A stretch of 58,432 nt of DNA from an uncultured archaeon (GTDB lineage Archaea > Hadarchaeota > Hadarchaeia > Hadarchaeales > Hadarchaeaceae): contig CAKZTQ010000021.1 of assembly GCA_937921735.1 (NCBI GenBank), positions 1 through 58,432 on the forward strand, in the 5' to 3' direction. Of the stretch, positions 4,031 through 12,569 are shown piece after piece. Position 1 is the first letter of the stretch; each line of letters starts with the position of its first letter. The notes under the pieces were generated by a model. It was not told the DNA's origin and searched no databases. It saw only the letters and a list, made by a program, of their open reading frames with translations. The position numbers and the translations under genes are program-made.

Positions 4031-4594
4031 TCATAATTTTACCTCTTTCCCCATCACCTGCCGAAGCAGAAGTCTGCTATCTATCTCCGCCCTGGCTTTC
4101 CAGCCCGTGTAAAGCATATCCTGCTCGTCCTGCATCAGATAACCCCGCCTAATGAAGCGGTCGAGCGTCATGCCAACCGCCCATTCCGGAAACTTCTCCT
4201 TTAAAAGCTGTTCCACCTCCGCCCTAGGTACCTTGCCATGTTTGGAATGGATGTAGGCCAGTGCAACCGCAAGCATCGCCAGTTCGTCCACCCTCCATCC
4301 CGAGAGCTGAGCCTCCGTGGCGGTTATTGCCTCCTTTGCGACGACGTAGAACCTAGCGCGCTCAAGCTGTTCCTCCGTCGGCTTCGTGGGCTCCTCGGCT
4401 TGCTCGTACACCACCTTGATATCCAAACCCAGCTCGTCGAGATGTCTTCGCGTGAGCTCAATTATCTTCACGTAATCTTTCCCCAAGCACTTCCTCAATT
4501 CCCAACCACGCACGCCAGGCGAGCGATGCCTCTGGAAGAGCAATAGACGGACCGCTCGCCTTACCTTCTGAATCAACTCAGCTTCCTCGGCCAT
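4031..4594 (-). CDS. small winged-helix (kite-like) SMC partner; resembles Nse3/MAGE homology domain
   Basis: 187 aa, third gene of the SMC operon, overlaps kleisin ORF by 17 nt; N-terminal 'VRLLLFQRHRS.GVRGWELRKCLGKDY' and C-terminal 'RRGYL...DMLYTGWKARAEIDSRLLLRQVM' pattern like MAGE WH-A/WH-B. Confidence 0.5.
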   Translation of the reverse strand: MAEEAELIQKVRRAVRLLLFQRHRSPGVRGWELRKCLGKDYVKIIELTRRHLDELGLDIKVVYEQAEEPTKPTEEQLERARFYVVAKEAITATEAQLSGWRVDELAMLAVALAYIHSKHGKVPRAEVEQLLKEKFPEWAVGMTLDRFIRRGYLMQDEQDMLYTGWKARAEIDSRLLLRQVMGKEVKL

Positions 4595-5375
4595 GTTCCC
4601 TTGACCTCCTTTCCTTCCACCGCTCGTAGGTGAGGGCGATGGGCACAGAGCTGGTGGCGGCCGCCTTTCCCTCTAAGGGCTTGAGGTAAATCTCCTCGCT
4701 GAGGGGATCTAGCTCCAGCGTCGCGAGCCCCTGGGAGATCATGAACGCGACGTAGTAGGCCCTTTCGACCGACTTCTCGTAAGTATCCTGCACGACGAAA
4801 TCCCAGTAATCCACCTTCCCCGACCTCGCCTCCTCCTTGAGCCTCCGATGGAGCTCCTCGATCCTTCCCTGCAGCTCGGCCGTGGAGACGAACTTAAACC
4901 TCAGCAACTCCGAGAACGACACCGTCCCTGGGGAAGCCTCGACGACCTCCTCCATCCGCATTCGCTCTCGAAGCGGCGGCAAGGTATTCCAGTAGTCTAT
5001 GGCCTCCTGAAGCCTTTGAGGCGTGACCTGCTCGAGGGACATTATCGGCCTCCAAGCCGCCAGCAGGCAACGCGCTAGCTCCGCCGGCTCGAGGAGCTTG
5101 AGCTTGGCCTCCACCAGCTCCGGGTCGACGTAAAGCATGGCCGCCTGGCGCTTCAACCAATCGCCCTGAAGTTTGATGACCGTCGAGAGCTCGTTGAAGG
5201 CCTCGGCATCCAAAAGCAGCTCGTCTATCGCCTTCCATTTAGGCAAGTATTTCCTCAGCACCTCAAGCTTTTTCCTGACGTCGATCTCAAAGGGATCTAG
5301 GCCCTTGAGCCTCACGCTTTGGCAAAGGCTAATTATCCTCATGAGCTCCGCCAGAGCCACCTTTCTGCCCGACAT
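4578..5375 (-). CDS. kleisin-like protein (ScpA/Nse4 type)
   Basis: 265 aa; N-terminal 'KGLDPFEIDVRKKLE', C-terminal WHD-like 'AYYVAFMISQGLATLELDPLSEEIYLKP' similar to ScpA C-terminal; immediately downstream of SMC gene. Confidence 0.6.
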   Translation of the reverse strand: MSGRKVALAELMRIISLCQSVRLKGLDPFEIDVRKKLEVLRKYLPKWKAIDELLLDAEAFNELSTVIKLQGDWLKRQAAMLYVDPELVEAKLKLLEPAELARCLLAAWRPIMSLEQVTPQRLQEAIDYWNTLPPLRERMRMEEVVEASPGTVSFSELLRFKFVSTAELQGRIEELHRRLKEEARSGKVDYWDFVVQDTYEKSVERAYYVAFMISQGLATLELDPLSEEIYLKPLEGKAAATSSVPIALTYERWKERRSREHGRGS

Positions 5376-7228
5376 CAGCTCACCACAGATACCTCGGATT
5401 TTCCTTGAACCTTCTGCACGAGTATCATGTTCGCTACCTCGCTGCTGAACACGACTTGGCTTGGGGTGATGAACACGTACTGGGCGTCGGAATCCGCGGC
5501 CGAGTCGATTATCAGCTTGGCCATCAGCTCGCGGTTGAGGGGATCCATGTGTATGTCGAACTCGTCCACCGCGCGGAAGGGGGAGCGCAGGTGTTGTTGA
5601 AGCGAGAGGAGAAAGGCCATCAGGGCGACGGTGCGCTCGCCGCCGCTTTGGGTATAGGCGTCCAGCACCAGCGGCTCGCCGCCCCTGTAGCCGACGAGCA
5701 GCTCAAGTCCAGCTCCCTCGATGTCTTCCATGTTCACCAGCCTGACGGAACCGGTTGCCCCCACCCTCGCGAGGTTAGCTTGATAAAGGGGGTTCACCTC
5801 GTCGATGAGCCTCTCGAGCGTCCTCCTCCACAGCGACTTCCTTAGCTCAACGTCCTCGAGCGCCCTCCGCCTGTTTTCTGAGACCTCCTTTATCCTATCG
5901 CTCAGCTTGCTGTAGATCTCCAAGTGATGGTTGTAGACCTCCTCCGCCTCCTCCGGCACCTCAGCTAGGGCGGCGAGCTGGGCGCTGACGTACTTGAGCT
6001 CCTCTAGCACTTCGCCGGGCGTCCTCTTCGTCTCTATCCTCACCCCCGCCTTCGCGCGCTCGGGCTCGAGCTGCCTCAGATCCTCCTCCTCTTCGGAAAG
6101 CCTCTTGTTGAGGTGGCGGATCTCCCTTTCCAACAACCCCTTCCGATATCTCGAGACCGCCTCGTCTACCTTAACGTCGACCACCTCGTCGAAAAGTTTG
6201 GAGATCTCCTTCTCCGACTCGGTTATCTGCCCCTCGATTTTTGCCTTGGCCCGTTGAAGCTTCCTCACCTCTTGGCGGACTTTAGATCGTTCGCCGGTGC
6301 TCTCGCCCGATGCCTCCAGCTGCGCCATTTGTCTCTCGATCGAGATCAGATCGTAGAAGAGTCCTCGGTACCTGAATCGCTCCTGCTCCAACCTTCGGGA
6401 GAGTGACTCATGGGCCAATCGCCTTTCGGATATCCTGCGCGCCAGCGACTCGAGCGTGGCCTCCATCCGTTTTATCCTTTCCTTAAGCTCCTCGATGTCC
6501 CTCTCGTGCTTTATTATCCTGGCCCAGATTTCCTCCCTCTCGAGCATGGCCTTGCGGGACCTGAGCTCTCGCTTCAACTTGAGCTTCTCGTATTGCTCCT
6601 TCCAGTAAGCTAGGGTTTGCTCGGCCGATTTCAGCAGGTTGGCCACCGCCTCCTCCTCGCCGACCAGCCTGTTCAGCTTCTCCTGCGCTTCCAGCACCCT
6701 GCGCCTGTAATCCTGAAACCCGACCGCCTCCTCGACGAGCTGCAGCCTCTCCTCCGGCGAGATGATGCCGAATTGCTCGATCATGTTTTGGTGCATTATG
6801 ACGAGCATGTTGTCGGGGTTCAAACCGATGCCCCTGAAGATGCGCTCGACCCTGCCCTTTGGCACCTGCTTGTAGTCCATCTCGTACCAGTAGGTGCCAT
6901 CGTCCTTGAGGTACCTAGACAGCGCGACGGAATCCGAACGGCTGAAGGGGAAAGGCCTTACCCCGTCGACGGGCGTATTATCGAACAGTAGAGTCACCCT
7001 CGCCGCCCTCTTGCCGTGCCTTATCAAATCTCGGAGCTTCCTGGCGCGCTCGGTGTAGCTTTGACCCATCGCGACGGATATCGCCACGAGGATCGCCGAT
7101 TTTCCGGCACCGTTGGGGCCACAGATGAGGTTGAGGCCCCGCTTGAAAGGTATCCTAGCGTACTCATAGGACATGAAGTTCTCCAGGATTACTTCCTGGA
7201 GGTAGGTCTTCGGAGCACGAATAGCCAT
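5375..7228 (-). CDS. compact SMC-family ATPase (Smc5/6-like head)
   Basis: 617 aa; Walker A 'GPNGAGKSA', coiled-coil middle, signature 'TQSGGERTVALMAFLLSLQ', Walker B region 'PFRAVDEFDIHMDPLNRELM'. Confidence 0.9.
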   Translation of the reverse strand: MAIRAPKTYLQEVILENFMSYEYARIPFKRGLNLICGPNGAGKSAILVAISVAMGQSYTERARKLRDLIRHGKRAARVTLLFDNTPVDGVRPFPFSRSDSVALSRYLKDDGTYWYEMDYKQVPKGRVERIFRGIGLNPDNMLVIMHQNMIEQFGIISPEERLQLVEEAVGFQDYRRRVLEAQEKLNRLVGEEEAVANLLKSAEQTLAYWKEQYEKLKLKRELRSRKAMLEREEIWARIIKHERDIEELKERIKRMEATLESLARRISERRLAHESLSRRLEQERFRYRGLFYDLISIERQMAQLEASGESTGERSKVRQEVRKLQRAKAKIEGQITESEKEISKLFDEVVDVKVDEAVSRYRKGLLEREIRHLNKRLSEEEEDLRQLEPERAKAGVRIETKRTPGEVLEELKYVSAQLAALAEVPEEAEEVYNHHLEIYSKLSDRIKEVSENRRRALEDVELRKSLWRRTLERLIDEVNPLYQANLARVGATGSVRLVNMEDIEGAGLELLVGYRGGEPLVLDAYTQSGGERTVALMAFLLSLQQHLRSPFRAVDEFDIHMDPLNRELMAKLIIDSAADSDAQYVFITPSQVVFSSEVANMILVQKVQGKSEVSVVS

Positions 7229-8119: not shown

Positions 8120-8554
8120 ATGGGTGGGGTTAAAGTGAGGCTGTGGTTAATTCATCCTAAATATCTCGATTGTAAGGGTTTGATTGCTGTTTGGAGGGAA
8201 GGCCTTTTGGCAAAGAAGGTTCTGGAGGGAAAAACTAGGGGCTATACGAATCACCCACAACTCAAAATTTTTAAAGAGCACGAGAAGCCTGTTGATCTGA
8301 TTAACGCTTATTTATTTCAAATTTACCTCGAAGCCCAGAGGAGAGGCTATTCTTTTAATTTTTCAAAGATAGAGCCCTTGAACTTGAAAGAGGTTGTAAC
8401 TGTTGCAAGAGGACAATTGAAAGACGAGTTTCGGTTGTTACTGGAAAAGTTAAAAACAAGAGACAAAAAGAAGTTTGAAGAAATAAAGAACTTGGAACTT
8501 GATAGCGTAGAGCCAAATCCAATTTTCAGAGTGGCGGAGAAACAAAGGTTTTAA
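8120..8554 (+). CDS. pyrimidine-dimer DNA glycosylase (T4 endonuclease V / Pyr_excise-like)
   Basis: 'VRLWLIHPKYLDCKGLIAVWREGLLAKKVLEGKTRGYTNHPQL' signature. Confidence 0.8.
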   Translation: MGGVKVRLWLIHPKYLDCKGLIAVWREGLLAKKVLEGKTRGYTNHPQLKIFKEHEKPVDLINAYLFQIYLEAQRRGYSFNFSKIEPLNLKEVVTVARGQLKDEFRLLLEKLKTRDKKKFEEIKNLELDSVEPNPIFRVAEKQRF

Positions 8555-9757: not shown

Positions 9758-10282
9758 ATGGCCAGAAAATTTGGGATGTTAGACGTTGTCCTCACCATTG
9801 TCGGCGCAGTGATCTATGGACTAGGATGCTACGCTACAATGGGCATCGCAATCGGTTTCATCACCCTCAGACCAGCTTCGTTCATAGCCTGCCTTTGGGG
9901 AGTGCTCTTCGGTCCATGGGTCGGTGGTTTAGCTGCTGGAATAGGTAATACCTTTATCTCGGATATCCTCGCTGGCTGGTTCGGAGTTGGCGGAGTAGGG
10001 GGCTTCGTCGGAAACTTCATGATGGGATTCATCCCGGGACTACTAGTTAGGGACGCTCGAAACTGGAAAGCGGTGGCCCTTTGGTCCGGTGTGTCGGCGG
10101 TGGTCTGTGCCTTCTTCGTTGGGGGTTGGATTGCCCTCATGGGCTACGCTCCCTTCTGGGTACTCTTCTGGACGGTGATCCTCGTCGATGTACCACCCAA
10201 CGTCATAGCGACGCCGATTGCCGTTAACTATCTGCTGGAGCCCATAAGGAAAAGAGGCTTATACTGGAGAGAGAGGAAATAG
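9758..10282 (+). CDS. ECF transporter S component (substrate-binding membrane protein)
   Basis: 174 aa multi-TM; 'GPWVGGLAAGIGNTFISD'-type S-component pattern; T/A/A' genes later in same island. Confidence 0.7.
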   Translation: MARKFGMLDVVLTIVGAVIYGLGCYATMGIAIGFITLRPASFIACLWGVLFGPWVGGLAAGIGNTFISDILAGWFGVGGVGGFVGNFMMGFIPGLLVRDARNWKAVALWSGVSAVVCAFFVGGWIALMGYAPFWVLFWTVILVDVPPNVIATPIAVNYLLEPIRKRGLYWRERK

Positions 10283-10426
10283 CCCCGTAAAGCTCCATAC
10301 TAGCTATGTTATTTTTTATTTTTTTTAAAGTGAAGAGATTTTTCTCTATCAAAATAAAAATCGTCTAAAATAAATGACTCTAAATGACTCACAGCCTTGA
10401 TGGAACTTTGCTATGGTTTTAAAAAT

Positions 10427-10519
10427 CTAAGCAATAGAAGCAAGCCAAGCCACTAAAGCGCTCACAACGAAAGCAGCTATTATTGCACCTATAATCCCAG
10501 CTACTACTTTCCAGGACAT
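10427..10519 (-). CDS. 30-aa single-TM small protein
   Basis: Reading ATG..TAG on minus strand gives MSWKVVAGIIGAIIAAFVVSALVAWLASIA; preceded by strong SD 'TAAGGAGGT'; below ORF-track cutoff. Confidence 0.55.
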   Translation of the reverse strand: MSWKVVAGIIGAIIAAFVVSALVAWLASIA

Positions 10520-10634
10520 TTTTACCTCCTTACACCCCTTAAATTCTCCATATAAAAATGTTTTCTTTTTTGAAAAGAAGGAGATAAGGAGATAAAATCT
10601 TTATATTCCGAAATTTCAATTAATCAAAGATAAC

Positions 10635-12569
10635 ATGTACGGATGGGCAGGAAACGTTCTTTGGGTAAATCTTTCGTCGGAGAAAATTATAAAAAAACCG
10701 TTAGATGAGAAGATTGCCCACGATTTTTTGGGGGGAAGAGGATTCAACTCGAAGGTACTTTTTGACAATGTTGGGTCAAAAACCGACCCCCTCTCTCCTG
10801 AAAACGTTCTCTGTTTCGGAGTCGGTCCCATAACTGGTACCCCTTTTCCGAATAATGGAAGAATTCAAGTCAGCACCTTATCTCCCCTTTCCGGAATACT
10901 GGGAGATGGGAGCGCGGGGGGGTTCTTTCCCGCCTCCCTGAAGTTCGCAGGCTATGATCAAATAGTTGTAATTGGAAAAGCTGTTAAACCCAAATACTTG
11001 CTGATCGATGATGACCACGTGGAGTTAAGAGATGCTGGAGATCTGTGGGAAAGAAACGTGTGGGAAACTACGGATATGCTGCAGGAGGAACACGGCGATG
11101 ACTTTTGCGTCGCTGCAATCGGGCAAGCTGGCGAACATCTCGTGAGATTTGCATCGGTGATGTTCGATAAATATAGCTCCGCGGCTAGGGGGAGCGGGGC
11201 GGTCGCGGGCTCGAAGAACTTAAAGGCAATTGCCGTTCGTGGCACAAAAGAAGTGAAAATAGCTAGACCAGAAGAATTTGATACGATGGTGGAAGAGTCC
11301 AAGGAATTTTTCCTGAACGATGAGTTGCAGAAAGAAATAGCAACCTATGGATCTCATCTGGGGATGGTCCGATGGTGGCCCGGTTACAAATATTTTAAAA
11401 AACGCCTTGCACCGGACGAAGTTCCTTCCCCGCTTAAACCCGAAAGCTGGAAAAAATATGAAGTGGGTAGGATTAAGTGCTATGGATGTGTTGTTCCTTG
11501 CAAAAATGTTTACAAAATCCCAGATGAAAAGTATAATAACGAAATCGGTAAGGGCCTTCAGTTCGAGACCATCTATTGCTTAGGGACAAATTGTGGAGTA
11601 GTTGACCCAGTAGCTATCATGATCATGGGGAACTTAGCTGATAAATATGGGATGGATGCTATTGCTCTCGGAAATGCTATAGCGTTTGCCAAACAGCTTT
11701 ACGAACTTGGTATAATAACAAAAGAACATACCGGCGGACTCTCGCTCGAATGGGATGCGAAAGACGATCAAATAGAGCTCATCCATCAGATTGCAATGAG
11801 AGAGGGTTTTGGAAATATCGTTGCAGAGGGCATGTATTATATCGCGAAGAAATTCGGGGAAAAAGCCATGGAGTACTGTTATCATGTTAAGGGATTATGT
11901 CGAGGCCCTGGCAACGATATGCCGCCCTTATGGGGGCTGGGGAACGCCACTTCAACTCGGGGTGCAGATCACCTTCGTGGACGGACGCTAGCGATATCGC
12001 CGAACGACAAACACATTTTTTCAAAGCTGATACAAGCTGGGCATTTACCTCGAGATCCGGTCCCTCTGTTGATTACCGCGGAGAATGCTAGCACGCTCGC
12101 AGATTCGCTGGGATGCTGTAAGGGTTCCGTTATAACGTGGTCAAGTACCCTCCCGCTAATCTACAAATATCCACTTTGGGAAGGGGTAGTGAAACTTTTG
12201 GCGGTTGTTACCGGTGTAGAATTTAGTATTCATGCCATCGTTGATTGTTTAGAAAGGATATATGCCATAGAAAGAGCACTGTTGGTAAAAAGAGGGATAA
12301 AGCGAAAACATGATAGGCTCCCACTACATCCTTCGGTTAGCAAAACAGAGGGAAAAAATCTCCAAATAGAACACGAAAAACTCCTAACCGAGTATTATAC
12401 GCTTCGAGGTTGGGATCCGCACTCTGGCGCCCCTACAAGGGAAAATCTTGAAAGGCTTGGTTTGAAATATGTTGCGGACGAGCTAGAGTCTCACGGGCCA
12501 TATCCTGACTGGGACGGTCCACCCTATTGGCCCCTCGAGAAGTATCCTACCGGTGGCGCTAGAGCTTAG
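10635..12569 (+). CDS. aldehyde ferredoxin oxidoreductase family (W-pterin) protein
   Basis: 'MYGWAGNVLWVNLSSEKI', 'GGRGFNSKVLF', 'CYGCVVPC', late Cys 'DSLGCC'. Confidence 0.9.
   Translation: MYGWAGNVLWVNLSSEKIIKKPLDEKIAHDFLGGRGFNSKVLFDNVGSKTDPLSPENVLCFGVGPITGTPFPNNGRIQVSTLSPLSGILGDGSAGGFFPASLKFAGYDQIVVIGKAVKPKYLLIDDDHVELRDAGDLWERNVWETTDMLQEEHGDDFCVAAIGQAGEHLVRFASVMFDKYSSAARGSGAVAGSKNLKAIAVRGTKEVKIARPEEFDTMVEESKEFFLNDELQKEIATYGSHLGMVRWWPGYKYFKKRLAPDEVPSPLKPESWKKYEVGRIKCYGCVVPCKNVYKIPDEKYNNEIGKGLQFETIYCLGTNCGVVDPVAIMIMGNLADKYGMDAIALGNAIAFAKQLYELGIITKEHTGGLSLEWDAKDDQIELIHQIAMREGFGNIVAEGMYYIAKKFGEKAMEYCYHVKGLCRGPGNDMPPLWGLGNATSTRGADHLRGRTLAISPNDKHIFSKLIQAGHLPRDPVPLLITAENASTLADSLGCCKGSVITWSSTLPLIYKYPLWEGVVKLLAVVTGVEFSIHAIVDCLERIYAIERALLVKRGIKRKHDRLPLHPSVSKTEGKNLQIEHEKLLTEYYTLRGWDPHSGAPTRENLERLGLKYVADELESHGPYPDWDGPPYWPLEKYPTGGARA

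Follow-up and report, generated by a model that had tools for sequence, protein, structure and literature searches.

The stretch of DNA analysed here, referred to as the window, is a contig of 58,432 nucleotides (CAKZTQ010000021.1, assembly GCA_937921735.1) from an uncultured archaeon of the Hadarchaeota, whose source genome is a metagenome-assembled genome (MAG) of 1.05 Mb in 59 contigs, 83% complete. Positions 4031-7228 of its minus strand hold three overlapping genes that encode an SMC ATPase, a kleisin and a kite (Table 1). An earlier interpretation of this DNA made without database searches (the sequence-only reading) had described three minus-strand reading frames with overlapping ends, and their coordinates and sizes are exactly as noted there. 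The archaeal origin that it proposed is also correct, as the nearest named relative is a Hadarchaeota MAG, with a kleisin 74% identical to that of the window in a scan of GTDB contigs. The genes are tightly packed: the SMC stop codon and the kleisin start codon have one base in common (TGATG), the kleisin and kite genes overlap by 17 nt, and a ribosome-binding-like AGGAGGT precedes the ATG of the kite gene. On the other side, 55 bp separate the SMC gene from a divergently transcribed gene for a protein of 235 amino acids (aa).

Table 1. Predicted products of the three-gene operon and of its two flanking genes, with window positions and the basis of each assignment
Feature	Position	Strand	Basis
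SMC5/6-type SMC ATPase, hinge-less, 617 aa	5375..7228	-	Pfam, profile scores, motifs, hinge profile
Nse4-type kleisin, 265 aa	4578..5375	-	Pfam, PDB profile search, AlphaFold/Foldseek, hhalign
Nse1/Nse3-type kite, 187 aa	4031..4594	-	Pfam (sub-threshold), AlphaFold/Foldseek, hhalign
Conserved gene, divergently transcribed, 235 aa	7284..7991	+	Linked by conserved neighbourhood only
Lhr-type DEAD/H helicase, 963 aa	1088..3979	+	Convergent with the operon; association only

The SMC protein matches Pfam SMC_N (E=8.7e-33) and carries a Walker A motif (GPNGAGKS, near residue 37), a signature motif (TQSGGER, 526-532), a Walker B motif (DEFDIHMDP, 555-563) and the sequence QYVFITP (583-589). When a profile of 35 operon SMC sequences was searched against the PDB, human SMC6 (187 bits), yeast Smc5 (181), yeast Smc6 (178) and human Smc5 (162) scored above canonical Smc (132), SMC2 (111) and SMC3 (101); in a search with a profile of 20 sequences, Rad50 did not reach 45 bits. 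The canonical SMC encoded in the same genome (L149, 772 aa), used as a control, gave 530 bits for canonical Smc, 197 for SMC2, 168 for SMC3 and 54 for Smc5. Several motifs are consistent with this ranking. For instance, operon heads and yeast Smc5 have in common the sequence LDxxTQSGGER, with a two-residue insertion before the signature (LDAYTQSGGER / LDSHTQSGGER), the operon Walker B DEFDxHMDPxNR resembles DEFDVYMDxxNR of Smc6 where most canonical SMCs have DE[IVA]D..LD, and QYxxITP resembles QYFLITP of Smc5 where most canonical SMCs have IT[LH]. Membership of the operon ATPase heads in the Smc5/Smc6 subfamily is thus well supported by sequence comparison, with moderate support from trees, and the heads do not group with Rad50/SbcC or RecN, as the sequence-only reading had anticipated. 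The operon contains one SMC gene, and one gene of the SMC5/6 type was found in the genome at its level of completeness.

In phylogenies of SMC heads, the operon sequences form a clade with 100/100 support and group with eukaryotic Smc5/6 (SH-like approximate likelihood ratio test 83-84, ultrafast bootstrap 86-89; 83/86 by bipartition in the first tree). All SMC5/6-type heads separate from canonical SMCs plus Rad50 with 94.5/92 support, and the deep order was scrambled after divergent Asgard SMCs were added. In published trees, SMC5/6 and archaeal "SMC5/6-related" SMCs form a clade with 100% maximum-likelihood bootstrap support (PMC9389158). Our head trees favour, but do not prove, a common branching of the operon with Smc5/6. 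The competing placements are not rejected by approximately unbiased (AU) tests, which are weighed below.

A departure of this ATPase from Smc5 and Smc6 lies between its heads. A profile of the hinge, built from canonical and Asgard SMCs, recognised 38 of 42 controls (11/15 canonical, 19/19 Asgard long SMC5/6-type and 8/8 other Asgard SMCs), and it matched 0 of 55 operon SMC entries, a number that includes some entries present in more than one alignment, as well as 0 of 6 short SMCs from the other families. Likewise, SMC_hinge is not among the Pfam families listed for 35 operon SMC members, and no CXXC zinc hook occurs between the heads in 35 members. The stretch from Walker A+170 to signature-100 measures only about 220-290 residues, and each arm would accordingly be short, roughly 110-150 residues as judged from sequence. 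Because its SMC is without a hinge, the operon does not represent just a smaller Smc5/6. A further observation concerns the canonical SMC of Hadarchaeota, which is also short (732-772 aa) and without a detectable hinge (L149:6123-8441, L151:5295-7493, L152:4215-6473); in a relative of another class (L173) it is 1140 aa long and a hinge is present. Both SMC types of the Hadarchaeota lineage seem to have lost the hinge.

The second protein, to which the sequence-only reading had attributed kleisin-like termini, emerges as a kleisin of the Nse4 type from profile, PDB and Foldseek searches. Pfam Nse4_C is found in 18 of 19 members, at a best E of 1e-4 that is below the curated cut-off. A kleisin profile searched against all PDB sequences placed Nse4 and EID3 first (2.1e-6 and 2.4e-4), and a 42-sequence profile returned only Nse4/EID3 up to E=10 (best 1.4e-5). 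In the AlphaFold model (mean pLDDT 82), an N-terminal helical domain (residues 2-80) with a third helix of 31 residues is followed by a poorly defined flexible middle and a C-terminal winged helix (residues ~165-262). The first two Foldseek ranks of this model are Nse4, followed by kleisin domains of ScpA, Rad21 and cohesin. Alignment with archaeal ScpA by hhalign extends over nearly the full length (E=1.5e-7), and the operon protein is therefore a kleisin. It has no SMC_ScpA match in Pfam, whereas the real ScpA of the genome matches that family at 2e-18.

For the third protein, the sequence evidence alone is weak, and the assignment therefore rests on structure. At sub-threshold E values, Pfam MAGE was seen in 10 of 19 members and Nse1 in 6 of 19, and the MAGE match obtained with a 19-sequence kite profile was lost with a 28-sequence profile. 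The AlphaFold model (pLDDT 82, pTM 0.64) is a tandem winged helix with domains at about residues 20-90 and 100-165. Foldseek placed Nse3 first (1.8e-5), followed by MAGE-G1/NSE1 (3.6e-5), Nse1 (2.6e-4) and then MAGE-A4, with E values ranging from 1.8e-5 to 1e-3; ScpB ranks 13th. Identification of this two-winged-helix-like protein as a kite, suggested in the sequence-only reading, is upheld by the modelled fold, and its assignment to the Nse1/Nse3/MAGE type is well supported at the level of predicted structure. All loci have one kite gene each, without a RING.

The operon represents more than a chance arrangement because, in addition to the SMC_N match, homologues occur in the same order in loci of relatives. 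The scan of GTDB contigs yielded 67 loci belonging to Hadesarchaea/Hadarchaeota, Bathyarchaeota or other archaea. Among 20 further Hadarchaeota loci, the order SMC-kleisin-kite is always kept, with abutting or overlapping gene ends; all 20 contain the kleisin, 19 the SMC and 18 the kite, the gaps being due to contig ends, by which three of the loci are cut, and the proteins are 37-85% identical to those of the operon. About 50 loci, mostly from Bathyarchaeota, have the same arrangement, with an SMC of 613-681 aa in nearly all. The kleisin profile also recovers members in three further archaeal families (f19, f111 and f116), together with a linked SMC and kite. Within Hadarchaeota the operon is present in 21 of 28 genomes, and those without it are mostly incomplete ones, plus one genome of another class. 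Since the genome of the window separately encodes a canonical SMC with ScpA, and Rad50, the operon would specify an additional complex.

Two neighbouring genes recur beside the operon. The 235-aa gene adjoins the SMC gene divergently in nearly all Hadarchaeota loci, in about half of the Bathyarchaeota loci and in family f19; its protein has no match in Pfam, NCBIfam or PDB. An Lhr-type helicase gene is convergent to the kite gene in 8 Hadarchaeota loci. These nearest conserved neighbours fit a role in genome maintenance but prove nothing. A similar helicase begins directly behind a kite gene in genome G312 (L157:10809-13001), which is considered again below.

More distant relatives of the system occur in Asgard archaea, for which genomes with 20-55 Ras-type GTPases were taken as Asgard. 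These genomes encode long, hinge-bearing SMC5/6-type SMCs with kleisin and kite genes of their own. In family f40, the gene order is AAA ATPase-SMC (1121-1145 aa)-kleisin-kite-zinc/winged helix, and family f143, which is probably Asgard to judge from adjoining Asgard families in the genome sampling, combines a hinge-bearing SMC of 831-840 aa with a kleisin and a kite. Comparison of f40-type Asgard proteins with those of the operon by hhalign gave E=1.3e-9 for the kleisin and E=2.2e-5 for the kite, and both kite profiles recognise the kite of f143 (1.6e-9 and 2.4e-17). Because Asgard kleisins and kites are linked in this way to those of the operon, the system is a broad archaeal family, of which the form in Hadarchaeota and Bathyarchaeia is a hinge-less branch. 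The sequence-only reading advocated a survey of gene order in TACK and Asgard genomes; the cassette is not confined to those groups, the window being from Hadarchaeota.

Several of these relatives have features worth recording. Most f40 loci carry the AAA ATPase gene before the cassette and a gene for a TFIIB-type zinc/winged-helix protein after it (L159:6649-7716, 1680-2093; L147). The f143 cassette is accompanied by genes for an M48/SprT-like protease with a RING-type zinc finger and for an RWD/UBC-like protein with a FANCL-like RING (L195:8827-9534, 9829-10689), and RING subunits also occur in eukaryotic Smc5/6. Genome G312 (L157, L158, L144) has two SMC5/6-type sets, one of which includes a kleisin with an extra N-terminal winged helix; these two sets possibly represent an independent step towards two different SMCs. 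Family f152 has hinge-bearing SMCs of about 1000 aa (L199:4406-7393, L200:4527-7532) that fall with Smc6 in the head tree, where their branches are long, and their gene is followed by a gene for a 284-301 aa protein and a winged-helix gene.

On this evidence, the product of the operon is very likely an archaeal complex of SMC, kleisin and kite that is homologous to the eukaryotic Smc5/6 core, with one copy of each part. The parts are assigned by sequence and predicted structure, and from these we infer their assembly and function. The same three subunit classes are found in eukaryotic Smc5/6, the SMC heads being like Smc5/Smc6, the kleisin like Nse4 and the kite like Nse3/Nse1. The proposal in the sequence-only reading of a single-SMC relative of Smc5/6, rather than Rad50-Mre11 or canonical Smc-ScpAB, is borne out in that all three subunits match Smc5/6 best, and none of the results that it had listed as refuting was obtained. 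However, the operon is not eukaryotic Smc5/6 itself: it has one SMC rather than two, one kite rather than Nse1 with a RING plus Nse3, and no hinge. No Nse2, Nse5 or Nse6 partner was seen in its neighbourhood. A search with zf-Nse (PF11789, the SP-RING of Nse2) had 0 matches in 28 genomes but carries no weight, as it matched no control genome either. It should be noted that a number of points weigh against homology with the Smc5/6 core. The head trees took in three eukaryotic sequences only, copied from HMMER alignments, and the larger tree lacks a clade made up of the operon and eukaryotes alone. AU tests reject none of the main alternatives, with p=0.13 for the operon together with canonical heads, and in a smaller set only the operon with Asgard was rejected (p=0.49 for operon plus canonical). 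Kite sequence similarity is below curated cut-offs, the whole-chain TM-score of the kleisin in Foldseek is low (0.24) because its domains are flexibly linked, and the AlphaFold models are of monomers only.

The AU results would allow the operon to have arisen by duplication of canonical archaeal Smc-ScpA(B), followed by divergence and by convergence on Smc5/6-like features, a reading that we consider unlikely. Both systems join an SMC to a kleisin (and, in bacteria, to a kite), and the lengthwise alignment of the operon kleisin with ScpA is expected of any kleisin. The SMC belongs to another subfamily, however, with Smc5/6 ahead by about 50 bits in the profile search and the ranking reversed for the canonical SMC of the genome; the kleisin matches Nse4_C and not SMC_ScpA; the kite is closer to Nse3/Nse1 than to ScpB; and the genome has a separate Smc-ScpA. 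Archaeal Smc-ScpA has moreover been reported without a kite (Jeon et al. 2020; PMC7055376). Canonical Smc-ScpA is thus disfavoured by the control searches with the canonical SMC and ScpA of the genome itself.

A defence module of the Wadjet/MksBEF kind, acting against plasmids or phages, also appears improbable. MukBEF, MksBEF and Wadjet (JetABCD) likewise unite a single SMC with a kleisin and a kite, and eukaryotic Smc5/6 restricts circular viral DNA. These systems nevertheless use another SMC subfamily, and the conserved neighbourhood of the operon contains no JetD-type nuclease gene. PADLOC has no Jet model that matches the kleisin or the kite, and it gives the SMC 39 bits with JetC against 103 with a generic mad3 ATPase, results by which identity with Wadjet/Mks was rejected. 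The order-level distribution of the operon and its stable flanks also differ from variable islands. Defence by DNA clamping alone, without a JetD-type nuclease, may still be among its roles. It is highly improbable that the ATPase is of the Rad50/SbcC or coalescin (ASRP) type and its small partners are unrelated proteins. Coalescins/ASRPs and Rad50 are short SMC-superfamily ATPases found in archaea; the operon SMC is short like ASRPs and RecN, and it obtains 46-73 bits from ASRP and Rad50 models. Those scores are far from the cut-offs (46 bits against 300 for ASRP, 42-73 bits against at least 700 for Rad50). In ASRPs and Rad50 a zinc hook replaces the hinge (PMC9389158) and no kleisin or kite genes accompany them, whereas the operon SMC has neither hook nor hinge, lacks an Mre11 neighbour in a genome with its own Rad50, and has partners that are kleisin and kite by profile and fold. 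Identity with Rad50, RecN or a coalescin was rejected on profile scores, the missing zinc hook and the partner folds.

If the operon encodes a complex homologous to the Smc5/6 core, its working might be pictured as follows. Two copies of the SMC would sandwich two ATPs between their heads, and the kleisin would bridge them, with its N-terminal helices bound to the neck of one copy and its C-terminal winged helix capping the head of the other. A dimer of the kite, seated on the central part of the kleisin, would press DNA onto the ATP-engaged heads, and the clamp would open and close with each ATP cycle. In Smc5/6, most of the DNA clamping is done by Nse3 (PMC10512200). Since there is no hinge, the usual hinge-closed ring would be impossible for such short arms, and a kleisin-closed clamp or a short-step translocator is probable unless the arm tips pair by themselves. 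Alongside the housekeeping Smc-ScpA, the complex would serve genome maintenance, acting in the repair or the topology of DNA that is recombining or being replicated, and its role possibly includes the removal of foreign circular DNA.

Two other features of the window lie outside the operon. At 8120-8554 (+), 3' of the 235-aa gene, is a gene for a T4-endonuclease-V-like pyrimidine dimer glycosylase (Pyr_excise, 2.4e-20), which is absent from the loci of relatives that were compared. GC content along positions 1-56000 changes from 0.57 (1-8 kb) to 0.44 (12-28 kb) and then to 0.56-0.67 (28-56 kb), steps that may be due to foreign DNA, to strong compositional domains or to chimerism of the contig.

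SMCs of archaea described as "SMC5/6-related" have been in the literature since 2021-22 (PMC9389158; PMC10003631). They branch with Smc5 and Smc6 and very probably belong to the same subfamily as the operon SMC. The former study covers SMC proteins only, and the word kleisin does not occur in it. In the literature examined, with preprints and subscription papers outside its scope, no report was found of kleisin or kite partners, of the operon or of hinge loss. Thus, where the sequence-only reading could not tell whether the system had been described, the SMC subfamily turns out to be known, but no report of its kleisin and kite partners was found.

These data suggest that the three-part Smc5/6 core is older than eukaryotes. 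We think it probable that an SMC5/6-type ATPase, an Nse4-type kleisin and an Nse1/3-type kite formed one archaeal operon before eukaryotes, and that this operon persists in Hadarchaeota, Bathyarchaeia, Asgard archaea and other families; eukaryotic Smc5/6 would have arisen from it once the SMC and the kite had duplicated, and the hinge would have been lost in the version found in Hadarchaeota and Bathyarchaeia. The origin of the partner proteins of eukaryotic SMCs is little known according to a review (PMC10003631). The operon supplies the missing partners, and small homomeric complexes make it possible to test the origin of Smc5/6. If the hinge is truly absent, these complexes would also provide a direct test of the need of SMC motors for a hinge-closed ring. 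Precursors of the eukaryotic complex may naturally be sought among the Asgard versions, some of which lie next to RING, UBC-like and protease genes.

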